The translations under genes and the position numbers were made by a program. A stretch of 61,626 nt of DNA from a virus: positions 1 to 61,626 of IMG/VR virus record IMGVR_UViG_3300046167_000317, one strand, 5' to 3'. A model generated the notes under the pieces. The model was not told the DNA's origin. It worked only from the letters and a program-made list of their open reading frames with translations, and did not search any database. Of the stretch, positions 2,756 through 14,972 are shown piece after piece (the stretch's first letter is position 1; each line of letters begins with the position of its first letter).

Positions 2756-2911
2756 TTATATTATCGATTGATGTTCGTGTTTTGTTTGCAAATCGCGTTT
2801 CTTATTCTTGTACTGTCTATTCGCTTTACAATGAGGACAACTCCCGTTGTTTCTACAAGTTTTATCAAACCTTTTTGATCCGGTATAAGGCTTTTTTTTA
2901 GTCCTGCTCAT
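2756..2911 (-). CDS. Small basic protein with a Cys cluster (51 aa)
   Basis: The 51-residue ORF starts at the ATG at 2911, inside the last codons of the upstream gene. It is basic (MSRTKKKPYTGSKRF) and carries CRNNGSCPHCKANRQYKNKK, a Cys-x5-Cys-x2-Cys cluster that could bind zinc. Very similar small proteins occur in marine phages as I recall. The 3' part of the coding sequence contains the whole of promoter copy 3, and the TAA stop is formed by the end of its GATAATATAA block, so coding and regulatory sequence are superimposed. Confidence 0.7.
   Translation of the reverse strand: MSRTKKKPYTGSKRFDKTCRNNGSCPHCKANRQYKNKKRDLQTKHEHQSII
2757..2792 (-). promoter_or_regulatory. 36-bp early/middle promoter element, copy 3 (inside a coding sequence)
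   Basis: Minus strand: TTTGCAAAC, N5, ACGA, N9, GATAATATA. It lies completely within the 3' end of the 2756-2911 gene yet keeps every conserved base, and precedes the start at 2732 by 24 nt. Confidence 0.78.
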
Positions 2912-3152
2912 CTATTTCTTCATTTATACACCGCGCTATTTCGTAATAGTTTACGTCACTTAAAAACGATCGAGCGTAATTAGCTACTAGACTTCCTTTA
3001 CACCCGCAGTTATCAAATACTACGTTTTCTACTATTTCTTTTAGGTAATCTGCAGTAACTGTTTCATCACTAGCCCATTGAATGTCACCTAATATTTCTA
3101 AGTTTACTCGCCACGTAGCGTAGTTTGTCCATCCGTTGTATTCTTTATTCAT
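2898..3152 (-). CDS. Conserved phage protein with an NYATWRVNLE motif (84 aa)
   Basis: The 84-residue protein opens with YNGWTNYATWRVNLEI, a signature of a common phage protein family of unknown function. The middle has a VENVVFDNCGCKGS segment and the C-terminus is acidic. It lies directly downstream of the tRNA-like RNA at 3169-3278 and overlaps the start of the small Cys-cluster gene by 14 nt. Confidence 0.75.
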   Translation of the reverse strand: MNKEYNGWTNYATWRVNLEILGDIQWASDETVTADYLKEIVENVVFDNCGCKGSLVANYARSFLSDVNYYEIARCINEEIDEQD

Positions 3153-3168
3153 AATTTATTTGTTTTAG

Positions 3169-3278
3169 TGGACATGGCAGGAATCGAACCTGCGTTTGAA
3201 CCGAACCAGCCTCAGTAGTAACGCTTGCTGGAAGCATTAAGTTACCTTGAGTGTGGGTTCACTAACCATATCATGCCC
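3169..3278 (-). ncRNA. tRNA-like RNA with alanine-type acceptor stem and T-arm, no anticodon arm (tmRNA-like domain)
   Basis: The 110-nt minus-strand RNA folds by eye as follows. The 7-bp acceptor stem GGGCATG (3278-3272) pairs with CATGTCC (3176-3170), with a G-U pair at the 3-70 position and an A at the discriminator, the identity elements of alanine tRNA and tmRNA. The T-arm is canonical: GCAGG, TTCGATT, CCTGC (3193-3177). Between them the D-region has no stem (ATATGGTTAGT), and one long interrupted arm replaces D and anticodon arms: 3260-3256 with 3207-3203, 3251-3248 with 3214-3211, 3245-3241 with 3222-3218, 3235-3232 with 3226-3223. This is the layout of the tmRNA tRNA-like domain with helix P2, but capped by a short hairpin and without a tag frame. 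CCA is not encoded. Confidence 0.65.
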
Positions 3279-3527
3279 AATTGAGAGGCGGATAGCACTG
3301 GAATGTTAGGGATGCACGCCATTTAATAGTATGCCCTGACTTATACCCTTTTCTCTGTTTATACTATCTTTCGCTGTCATCGTTCGCACAATTACAGGTG
3401 ATCAAACCTTAGTGCCGTCAATATCTTGGCTTCCAGACTTAAACCTCTCCGCTAGCAATTCACTTATGTGTTAAAGAGTTACGGGCTGTATACGGCCACC
3501 TTCAACCTAATTAAGCTACTCGTCTAG
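3279..3527 (-). ncRNA. Candidate structured non-coding RNA upstream of the tRNA-like RNA
   Basis: The 249 bases between the stop at 3528 and the tRNA-like RNA have no ORF of note and look richer in G+C than the flanking genes. Nested complementary segments are visible on the minus strand: 3449-3444 with 3288-3283 (6 bp), 3416-3411 with 3299-3294 (6 bp, one G-U), and 3367-3361 with 3332-3326 (7 bp). Small hairpins such as AGGT-TTGATC-ACCT lie between. It could be part of one longer RNA with the tRNA-like domain, or a leader that is trimmed away. No Rfam-type family recognised. Confidence 0.4.
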
Positions 3528-3701
3528 CTATATTTCTTTTACCATTTCTGCGATCACACGGCGCATAAGTTCGCTGTGTATAGCATTGAAGTCATCATTG
3601 TTTACATCAAGATTGTTTAGTTGCCAGTCACAAGTTTTATATAGTGCTTGCATTGTTACTTCAGTTACTTGTGTTACGTGATCGTCTAAGTTCATATTCA
3701 T
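3528..3701 (-). CDS. Small hypothetical protein (57 aa)
   Basis: The 57-codon ORF starts at the ATG at 3701 (a second ATG follows two codons later) and ends with VIAEMVKEI and TAG. The composition is acidic and helical, with LDDHVTQVTEVTMQAL near the start. No family recognised. It is the last coding gene before the structured RNA region, 12 nt downstream of the 3714-3881 gene. Confidence 0.65.
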   Translation of the reverse strand: MNMNLDDHVTQVTEVTMQALYKTCDWQLNNLDVNNDDFNAIHSELMRRVIAEMVKEI

Positions 3702-4451: not shown

Positions 4452-4748
4452 TTAGTTATATTCATCATAGATCACCCCAGCTTCGTGGAATGCCCACATT
4501 ACTTTGTTTATAAATTCTATTGTATTGCACTTTGCTTTTTCAATTGGAAAGGTATATACCATTGCATTATAGAATTCCATTAAAGCTTCATTATTATATG
4601 CCCAATTTTTCTTAAAATACTCATACTCGTCACCTTGCATGAAGTTTAATCCTACTACTTTTCGTAGTTCGTTGTATTCAACATATATCCATCGATCGTC
4701 TTTTTCACACCATTCGTGTAATACTCTATCTATTCTATTTGCTTTCAT
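4452..4748 (-). CDS. Hypothetical protein (98 aa)
   Basis: The start is set at the ATG at 4748 (MKANRIDRVLHEWCEKD); a GTG-initiated version from 4784 would overlap the upstream gene by 26 nt, whereas this start leaves a 10-nt gap. The protein is rich in Trp, Tyr and Phe (EYEYFKKNWAYNNEAL). No motif or family recognised. Confidence 0.65.
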   Translation of the reverse strand: MKANRIDRVLHEWCEKDDRWIYVEYNELRKVVGLNFMQGDEYEYFKKNWAYNNEALMEFYNAMVYTFPIEKAKCNTIEFINKVMWAFHEAGVIYDEYN

Positions 4749-4758
4749 ATTTATAATT

Positions 4759-4920
4759 TTATATTGATTTCCAAAATAATTCACGTTGCTCGTCGGTTAA
4801 ACCTTTTAAGTTTTCTTGACCGAACATTTCAAGGCATATTTTAGTTCGTCTTTCGGATTCTTTAAAGTTGCGAGTTACCTCGTCCCACGCTTGTTGATTT
4901 GTTTGATATTGTCGGTACAT
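4759..4920 (-). CDS. Small hypothetical protein (53 aa)
   Basis: The 53-residue ORF is polar and helical, starts MYRQYQTNQQAWDEVTRNF, and ends GLTDEQRELFWKSI. It follows promoter copy 5 with a 22-nt leader. The LTDEQRELF pattern recurs in small phage proteins; function unknown. Confidence 0.65.
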   Translation of the reverse strand: MYRQYQTNQQAWDEVTRNFKESERRTKICLEMFGQENLKGLTDEQRELFWKSI

Positions 4921-6606: not shown

Positions 6607-7551
6607 ATGGCAAGAATTACCACATACGCATTAGATTCTAATATATCTTTAAATGATAAATTAGTGGGCACTGATGCTGACGACAATAGTATAACTAAGA
6701 ATTATTCTATAGACGCTCTCGGCGATGGTTTAATATCACTTAAGGATATTATAACTGGAACTGGCACATTAAACACAATACCTATGTTTACCCCAGACGG
6801 GCAAATTATAGGTGATTCCACTATAACCCAGGACGTAGGCGGTAATATTACAGTTGGAGTAAATTTAACTGTAGTAGATGATTTAACTGTGGAAGGTAAT
6901 ATTGATGTTGATAACAGCATAACTGTTGGCGGTGTTGGGAGTGTGTTTAATGGCACCGTAACTTTTAATGATAATATTACAATTAATGCAGACACCACAT
7001 TTGAGGGTGAGGCAAATTTTCAGAATATAGTTAAAGATGAAAATAGCCAGCCTGGTATACTTGGCCAGGTGCTTACATCAACAGGTAATGCAGTCTTATG
7101 GAAAAATCTTAATGCCATATCAGAAGTAAAAACCGCTACAGTTACAGTTACAGATGCTCAAATACGAACGCTAGGCACAGTACCGGTTGAAATAATACCT
7201 TCAACAACCGATGCTAGTATTCAAATAATAGGTTTAACCATCCAAAATATCGGAAACGGAGATCTTGGAGATTCATATGATTGGTCTGCGTCTGGTAACG
7301 GAGTTTTTTATGGCCAAGGATTTACATCAACACAACATAGAGTAGAAATAAATAATTCTCTTTTGCCAGAAGGAGGGGCTTCTTTAGCACCGGAAATATA
7401 TGTAGCTAGTATAACACCTGGAGGTATGAAATCTGGCGCTAGTATACAGCTTAGCACAACAACAGGAGTTAATCCTTCAATACCTATTGGTGAATCGCCT
7501 AGCGCAGAAATGATTGTCAATGTTACATATAGAATAATACCTACAACATAA
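6607..7551 (+). CDS. Tail fibre or tail-fibre-associated protein (314 aa)
   Basis: The protein begins MARITTYALDSNISLNDKLV, nearly the same start as the next gene, then GTDADDNSITKNYS. Residues of about 75-150 are short Thr/Val/Asn-rich repeats (NITVGVNLTVVDDLTVEGNI) typical of beta-helical fibre shafts. The C-terminal part is a separate beta-rich domain. The shared N-terminus probably docks the fibre on the tail; the variable C-terminus would face the host. The receptor is unknown. Confidence 0.65.
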   Translation: MARITTYALDSNISLNDKLVGTDADDNSITKNYSIDALGDGLISLKDIITGTGTLNTIPMFTPDGQIIGDSTITQDVGGNITVGVNLTVVDDLTVEGNIDVDNSITVGGVGSVFNGTVTFNDNITINADTTFEGEANFQNIVKDENSQPGILGQVLTSTGNAVLWKNLNAISEVKTATVTVTDAQIRTLGTVPVEIIPSTTDASIQIIGLTIQNIGNGDLGDSYDWSASGNGVFYGQGFTSTQHRVEINNSLLPEGGASLAPEIYVASITPGGMKSGASIQLSTTTGVNPSIPIGESPSAEMIVNVTYRIIPTT

Positions 7552-13418: not shown

Positions 13419-14972
13419 ATGGAATTTAATAATCCTAACGAAATCGTTAAAACCCTTACTTTTGGTAGTGAGGCAAATAGTCAAATTATATCAGGAGTAG
13501 AAAAATTAGCAAGCGCAGTAAAGAGCACTTTAGGTGCGTCTGGAAAATGCGTAATATACGAAGATGCTCTTGGAAGACCGGTAATAACAAAAGACGGTGT
13601 AACCGTTGCAGAAAGCGTAGTCTTATTACATCCGGTTGAAAACATAGGCGCTACCTTGATAAAAGAAGCGGCTAGAAATACAGTAAGAGAAGCAGGTGAC
13701 GGCACAACAACATCAACCGTGCTTGCTCATTCTCTATTAAAAATTGCAAACAAACATTTAGATGAAGAAAAAGTTAGAGAACTTAAAAGTGGCATTATTA
13801 GTGGTGCTGATAAAGTTAAGGTATATCTTGATAAAACCAGCACTGAAGTTAAAGGCGAAATGTTACGGAGCGTTGCTATCATTAGCTGCAATAACGATAT
13901 CGAGCTTGGAACCAAAATTGGCGAAGCTTACGAGCAAGTTGGAAAAAATGGAGTTGTACTAATGGAGGAGTCTGATACAAATGAAACTTATGTTGATTTT
14001 GTTGAAGGCGTCCAATTTGATAGTGGATTAAAATCCCCGCACTTAGTAACAGACAAAGACAAAGGTACGGCTGTTTTAGACGATCCTTATGTGCTTATTG
14101 TTTCTTCTCCTATTCCTAATATAAGAAAAATACAAAGTGTCTTAGAACACGTTATAAAAAGCAAAAGAAGTTTGCTTATAGTTGCAACTGTTGAGCAGCA
14201 GCCGTTCGCTACATTATTGTCAAATAAAGTTAAAGGTAATATAAAAGTAAATATAGTTGATGCCCCAGGCTTTGGGCCAACAAGGCAAGAAACTATAGAG
14301 GATCTGGCTTTACTTACAGGTGCTACAATTATAAACGAAGAGCTAGGGGATGATTTAGATTTAATTGATCCAAATGTATTAGGTTCTGCTATTAAATCTG
14401 TAACTGATGATAAATCAACTGTATTGCAAATATCTGATGAAATTGATATTACAGATCGAGTAGCTGATGTTAATAAGAAAATAGAAACAGAAACAAACCC
14501 GTTTTTTAGAAAGAAGTTAGAGCAGCGTTTGTCAATGCTAACAGGCAAAGTAGGTCTTGTTTATGTTGGAGCAGATTCAGCTGTAGAGTTAAAAGAAAAG
14601 AAAGATAGAGTTGAAGATGCGATCCATGCTACTAAAGCAGCTTATAAAGAAGGTATCGTAGCTGGAGGTGGAATTGCATTGCTTAATGCAGCAAATACTT
14701 TAAAGCCTAAGAATAAAGGAGAAGAGATATTATTTGAATCAATCAAAGCTCCTTATTACACAATACTAGACAACGCTGGGATTGTTGAAATCAAAAAGCC
14801 TTCGGTTAAAAACAGAGGTATTGACGTTAAAACCGGCAAAGAAGTTAATATGATTAAAGCAGGTATTATAGATCCTGTTTTAGTTACTAAGTCAGCTCTT
14901 AAAAACGCTGTAAGTGTAGTAACAACTATTATCTCTGCAGATTGTGTAATTAGTAATAAAAGATTAGCATAA
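13419..14972 (+). CDS. groEL: Chaperonin GroEL (phage-encoded)
   Basis: This 517-residue protein is a full-length HSP60/GroEL homologue. It has the ATP-site motifs KDGVTVAESV (about 58-67) and GDGTTTSTVLA (93-103), the conserved VEDAIHATKAAYKEGIVAGG hinge with the Asp needed for ATP hydrolysis, and a C-terminal IIDPVLVTKSALKNA. It lacks the GGM-rich tail of bacterial GroEL and ends SNKRLA. The GroES gene overlaps its stop (TAATG). Phage chaperonins fold phage capsid or other virion proteins, alone or with host subunits; which client is used here is unknown. Confidence 0.95.
   Translation: MEFNNPNEIVKTLTFGSEANSQIISGVEKLASAVKSTLGASGKCVIYEDALGRPVITKDGVTVAESVVLLHPVENIGATLIKEAARNTVREAGDGTTTSTVLAHSLLKIANKHLDEEKVRELKSGIISGADKVKVYLDKTSTEVKGEMLRSVAIISCNNDIELGTKIGEAYEQVGKNGVVLMEESDTNETYVDFVEGVQFDSGLKSPHLVTDKDKGTAVLDDPYVLIVSSPIPNIRKIQSVLEHVIKSKRSLLIVATVEQQPFATLLSNKVKGNIKVNIVDAPGFGPTRQETIEDLALLTGATIINEELGDDLDLIDPNVLGSAIKSVTDDKSTVLQISDEIDITDRVADVNKKIETETNPFFRKKLEQRLSMLTGKVGLVYVGADSAVELKEKKDRVEDAIHATKAAYKEGIVAGGGIALLNAANTLKPKNKGEEILFESIKAPYYTILDNAGIVEIKKPSVKNRGIDVKTGKEVNMIKAGIIDPVLVTKSALKNAVSVVTTIISADCVISNKRLA

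Follow-up and report, generated by a model that had tools for sequence, protein, structure and literature searches.

The occurrence in a phage of a tmRNA reduced to the tRNA-like domain (TLD) is already known in principle, from one mycobacteriophage. The TLD-only tmRNA of phage DS6A (Mao et al. 2009, as cited by PMC4131195 and PMC11915505) is reported to be an inhibitor of endogenous tmRNA, charged or not, perhaps acting through SmpB titration. Reduced molecules are found in organelles as well. The tag-less mitochondrial tmRNAs of jakobids and other organisms and the roughly 65-bp plastid tmRNAs of Mallomonadaceae retain the TLD and have lost the mRNA-like part; they are encoded by organelle genes and carry no variable module, and the mitochondrial ones co-occur with SmpB (PMC11915505). 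Full-length or two-piece tmRNAs, which carry a tag frame, are encoded by phage ssrA genes in Melnitz (PMC9004378), in the Bxz1 group and in Bacillus phage G (PMC4131195), and all have an alanine TLD. G3-U70 and A73 are the bacterial determinants of alanine identity (PMC9976931). The engineered tRNA scaffold used for recombinant RNA (PMC3753655) is an artificial counterpart, in which a foreign module is placed on a tRNA-like body.

The window analysed in this work is the whole 61,626-nt stretch of the IMG/VR virus record IMGVR_UViG_3300046167_000317. Two small phage genes are separated by 375 nt, and in this gap lies an RNA that an earlier note had likened to an isolated tmRNA TLD with alanine identity, devoid of anticodon arm and tag reading frame. 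Its parts and the adjoining gene, all on the minus strand, are the following.

3169-3278, minus strand: TLD RNA, 110 nt, G1 at 3278 and A73 at 3169; identified by cmscan with RF00023, by the TLD model and by the structural finder
3272-3278, minus strand: 5' strand of the acceptor stem, GGGCATG, G3 at 3276; 7 bp with 3170-3176
3262-3271, minus strand: D-region ATATGGTTAG, without a D-stem, aligned by cmscan to the tmRNA D-region
3256-3261, minus strand: 5' strand of P2, TGAACC, pairing with 3197-3202
3203-3255, minus strand: variable arm (module) of 53 nt, occupying the position of the mRNA-like domain; varies among relatives
3197-3202, minus strand: 3' strand of P2, GGTTCA, pairing with 3256-3261
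3177-3193, minus strand: T-arm GCAGG-TTCGATT-CCTGC, with compensatory T-stem changes in relatives
3170-3176, minus strand: 3' strand of the acceptor stem, CATGTCC, U70 at 3172; the discriminator A73 (3169) is followed by C
2898-3152, minus strand: 84-aa protein of the phrog_871 type (PHROGs), directly downstream of the TLD

The 7-bp acceptor with G3-U70, the A73, the T-arm and the stem-less D-region thus hold at the positions first assigned to them. The order of the parts (5' TLD strand, arm, 3' TLD strand) is uninterrupted and not permuted, and the two-piece tmRNA model RF04321 yields only 16.7 bits. Acceptor, D-region, start of P2 and T-arm are common to the window family and to the Rfam tmRNA family RF00023, and relatives have A8 and the GG of the D-region too. 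Neither an anticodon arm nor a tag frame is found in the RNA. Like the DS6A molecule, it is an isolated phage-encoded TLD without a tag frame; unlike the tmRNAs of Melnitz, Bxz1 and phage G, it has both TLD strands in one arm-closed RNA. DS6A, compared here by its published description, is a single actinobacteriophage, and neither a cassette arm nor a multi-RNA array is described for it. The predicted fold has a minimum free energy of -36.5 kcal/mol (z -2.67), equalled by 2 of 200 shuffles. A CCAGC/GCUGG pseudoknot may form in the arm, and shows no covariation.

The assignment to tmRNA was evaluated by covariance models. As the earlier note had proposed, an Rfam/Infernal search was carried out: the RNA matches RF00023 end to end (positions 1-374, mRNA part deleted; E 1.1e-11), but the score, 33.6 bits, is under the curated cut-off of 47. 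Since RF00023 gives 33-40 bits to 75-76-nt sites of Bacteroidota genomes which are probably ordinary tRNAs, this match alone is no evidence for a tmRNA, and the score fits equally an ordinary tRNA, either intron-bearing or decayed to a pseudogene. Such an origin is nonetheless very improbable. ARAGORN, run with or without introns (-i, -io), finds no tRNA or tmRNA in the RNA, so that the intron-containing tRNA that had been named as the refuting alternative is not found; the D-stem and the anticodon arm of a cloverleaf are missing. A TLD covariance model built from 47 TLDs, from which the window was excluded and in which relatives of the window type were included, assigns 50.6 bits to the window RNA vs 40.6 bits to the best match in ten Bacteroidota genomes, a gap of 10 bits; and the stems are intact and covarying in the relatives, at least 139 in number. 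Close relatives reach 53-69 bits with RF00023 although about 300 of the 374 model positions are missing. Relatives from arrays of the same kind score 60-69 bits, those of 80-81 nt at a similar location 64-65 bits. The cut-off of 47 is exceeded in 11 of 35 related virus records, with a maximum of 69.4 bits, always by matches of 80-82 nt. Relatives, covariation and controls are therefore in agreement with the earlier claim, and settle that the window RNA is the tRNA-like domain of a tmRNA without the mRNA part.

The family is large. At least 139 distinct TLD-like RNAs, a handful of which have odd acceptors and may be due to chance, were collected by pattern scans of viral contigs followed by a structural finder accepting any 7-bp acceptor; 173 of 545 viral loci are positive vs none of the shuffled loci, and all counts are lower bounds. 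Syntenic arrays were retrieved by using the 84-aa phrog_871-type protein as a marker. A first pattern scan (TGATNTGG...) had mostly matched other tRNAs, and BLAST of the TLDs against named phages returned T-arm matches only. TLD-like RNAs are 67-145 nt long, with a median of 79 nt. In 80% of 143 TLDs, vs 29% of shuffles, P2 forms a helix of 5 bp or more. The covariation looked for in related phages is present: two-sided, compensatory changes occur in the acceptor at pairs 4 and 5, and in the T-stem at four of its five pairs. In bacterial genome contigs the acceptor-fixed pattern detected 120 stretches, only 21 of which were accepted by the finder, some on clearly phage-like contigs in MAGs; hence, as sampled here, the RNA is mainly viral. 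TLD-like RNAs were also noticed in L354, L364, L385, L394 and L413, labelled as bacterial MAGs or genomes, and may denote either prophages or cellular use (L numbers are our own handles). One phage, L122, hosts two TLDs of different sequence (4740-4819 and 6650-6733).

As the initial pattern had G3-U70 fixed, its counts were kept out of any argument on this pair, and a separate scan was performed with the acceptor left free. Among the 79 distinct RNAs listed, G3-U70 is found in 78 and A73 in all 79, while pairs 4-6 covary freely: five pair types (GC, CG, AU, UA, GU) occur at pair 4, six at pair 5 and five at pair 6. A scan based on the T-arm only gave, among the matches listed, 51 TLD-like calls, one of which was judged false (TAAGAGT, discriminator C); among the 50 genuine calls listed, 49 have G3-U70 and one A3-U70. 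Another 68 of the listed matches failed the structural finder; most of them resemble the ends of ordinary tRNAs, and one, in L450, ends like a TLD. The retention of a wobble pair amid varying neighbours is the strongest sign that these RNAs are charged by alanyl-tRNA synthetase, and the pattern of conservation indicates that alanylation of the TLD is under selection. Acceptors of tmRNAs from the host phylum, Bacteroidota (GGGGGUG/CACCUCC and GGGGAUG/CAUCUCC), are also found in many phage TLDs.

The acceptor in the window is unlike that of the host tmRNA. This weighs against the notion that the RNA is the leftover of a prophage integrated into the host ssrA gene, a scenario suggested by the frequent use of ssrA as an integration site and by the tmRNA fragments left in phages (PMC9004378). 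Both TLD halves are present and closed by P2, and the array is conserved between phage genes in many phages; an integration remnant is thus extremely improbable.

The mRNA-like domain, with tag frame and pseudoknots, is absent from the 110-nt RNA, and a length of 67-145 nt leaves no room for it in the phage TLD RNAs at large. RF00023 detected no full-length tmRNA in 35 carrier records. SmpB was found in none of 75 carrier records (35 + 40, some of which may be fragments) vs 10 of 14 control genomes. The Bacteroidota tmRNAs that were read are 347-379 nt long and carry UCGAC (UUCGAC) in the D-region. This motif is missing from the D-region of the window type, and binding of SmpB by the latter is therefore not assured.

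How these molecules work may be envisaged as follows. The reading we favour, at an even chance, is that the window RNA could be an alanylated decoy which competes with the host tmRNA-SmpB system. According to this model, a phage tmRNA would have been cut down to its tRNA-like domain; the RNA would be matured from a polycistronic transcript by host RNase P, 3' processing and CCA addition, and charged by the host alanyl-tRNA synthetase through G3-U70 and A73. EF-Tu would then bind the acceptor and T-arms and host SmpB the D/T elbow, and the complex would vie with host tmRNA for stalled ribosomes. Lacking a reading frame, the TLD cannot tag proteins, and the proposed outcome is that fewer proteins are tagged and degraded in the infected cell, an effect reported in E. 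coli for the TLD of DS6A. The inhibition described for DS6A needed no charging, however, and pure titration does not account for how strongly G3-U70 is conserved. The strict alanine identity would also fit an active role, in which the alanylated TLD, assisted by host SmpB, accepts the nascent chain and frees stalled ribosomes without tagging, thus aiding phage translation while host mRNAs are destroyed. That evolution has retained frame-less tmRNAs in mitochondria, where they occur with SmpB, and in some plastids (PMC11915505) is in line with such a role. Yet release without a reading frame has no known route, the carrier records yielded no phage SmpB, and the DS6A TLD is reported as an inhibitor. 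We regard tag-less rescue as improbable.

Besides the alanylated decoy, a different function is suggested by the surroundings of the TLD. The earlier note had supposed that a second RNA, made from 3279-3527, could work with the TLD; two structured RNAs are predicted there from the sequence (3528-3451 and about 3450-3283). The additional elements of the array are listed below.

3451-3528, minus strand: scaffold A RNA, closing stem GCUAG...CUAGC, conserved GACGAGTAGCTTAATTAGG...ACATAAGTGAATTG
3506-3472, minus strand: scaffold A module, common to the window and L181
about 3283-3450, minus strand: third RNA, closed by GAGAGGU/GCCUCUC
about 3346-3312, minus strand: module of the third RNA, GTATAAGTCAGGG...GGCGTGCAT, found in other scaffolds too

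RNAs in the array are nearly spacerless, four bases separating the third RNA from the TLD, and each scaffold bears a variable module. The scaffold A motif was identified in 52 viral stretches, mostly beside a TLD, and its closing stems change in a compensatory manner (e.g. GUUAG/CUAAC). The third RNA is 96% identical to its equivalent in L124 and 84% to that in L173, and its module resides also in L147, within scaffold A, and in L138 and L180, within a different scaffold. Scaffold C (L131, L137, L164, L143 and others) is a second tRNA-like RNA: it has a T-arm and lacks an anticodon arm, its acceptor (AACUAG/CUAGUU) is not of the alanine type, and it bears a variable module. Scaffold D (TGTGCAGCGAATAAATAAC...AAATGACTGCACA) and scaffold C have the module CGCGCACCGGT...GTGGTGCACCGCGC in common (L161, L137). 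No Rfam family besides tmRNA was detected in the array loci searched, and nothing relevant on modular phage RNAs was found in the literature searched.

TLD arms take part in the exchange. Recurrence was defined as 85-100% identity over at least 18 nt outside masked TLDs; the TLDs of the flavobacterial-phage type have 31 distinct arms, 21 of which were matched, and two matches, to TLDs that had escaped masking, were dropped. The remaining 19 of 31 recur in other scaffolds or contexts vs 0 of 31 shuffled arms. The module AATAGGTGGGCGAATGC...TACCTAAATT is carried by the TLD of L124 and by scaffold A of L125 and L414, GAAATAGGAGACGAAAGTCACACTAACTT by the TLD of L157 and scaffold A of L539, GAAGTTAGCGCGTAAA...CCCACTAACTC by the TLD of L164 and scaffold A of L141. 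The module ATTGTTGTCAAGCGAAAGCATTGTTGTCAA is found in the TLD of L171 and in scaffold A of L160, where the closing stems are different yet complementary: AGAC[...]GTCT in the former, AAAC[...]GTTT in the latter; modules are thus grafted at helix ends, and their closing stems re-paired. Modules may be nested within modules (L153, L181, L423, L502), GGTGAGGGATCGTTATGAACTC within GAGTAGTAATGCGAGTGATAATGCAAG...CACTCAATAGTTATTACC being an example. The arm of the window itself has a near-identical copy only in the TLD of L470.

The exchange of arms with non-TLD RNAs is not expected from a simple decoy. This cassette behaviour suggests that the TLD may be a natural tRNA scaffold, i.e. a processing and stability handle whose ends would be neatly made by RNase P and the CCA-adding enzyme, while the exchangeable arm would act on a host or defence target. 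The number of recurring arms, the re-pairing of closing stems at graft sites and the presence of such modules on the T-armed, non-alanine scaffold C all point in this direction. In contrast, a mere handle leaves unexplained why the G3-U70 wobble is kept amid pairs that vary, and TLDs outside the flavobacterial-phage group carry a short plain hairpin where the module would be. On balance the handle function looks rather unlikely as the account of the window RNA. It is similar to the engineered tRNA scaffold in concept, and differs in having a TLD as its body and natural modules, exchanged among phage RNAs. The decoy and the handle are mutually compatible. More broadly, phages of Flavobacteria may use a combinatorial RNA system, in which several conserved scaffolds, tRNA-like and other, the alanine TLD being one of them, display a common set of recombining and nested structured modules, joined at helix ends, and so diversify the RNAs directed against host translation or defence; we put this forward tentatively, at somewhat less than an even chance.

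What is new with respect to DS6A is the breadth of the RNAs in viruses, the clear selection for alanine identity, and the exchangeable arms set in a multi-RNA array. The data suggest that interference with the host's ribosome-rescue system, or borrowing of it, occurs in many phages; if TLDs are widespread and selected for alanine charging, this would be a common phage strategy, and standard tRNA and tmRNA finders would miss such RNAs. Arm exchange between TLDs and other RNAs would exemplify natural modular RNA evolution, and the RNAs involved would supply stable scaffolds for RNA display.

The terminase of the window phage is 62.8% identical to that of an uncultured podovirus and 46% identical to those of the Flavobacterium phages elemo, followed by Maribacter and Cellulophaga phages. 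On the basis of these relatives, the host probably belongs to Flavobacteria. No clear TLD was found in the cultured flavobacterial relatives (elemo, phi18:3, phi38:1), where matches do not exceed 31 bits and are probably tRNAs; this negative result counts against the decoy. The podovirus with the nearest terminase, MW202828.1 (L718), encodes two tRNA-like RNAs. The one at 521-633 resembles tRNA-Cys and has an additional helix around its anticodon arm; the one at 634-703 is minimal, with a T-arm and an acceptor of roughly 10 bp. The window also encodes a phage GroEL at 13419-14972 (phrog_5725, E 4.8e-137).
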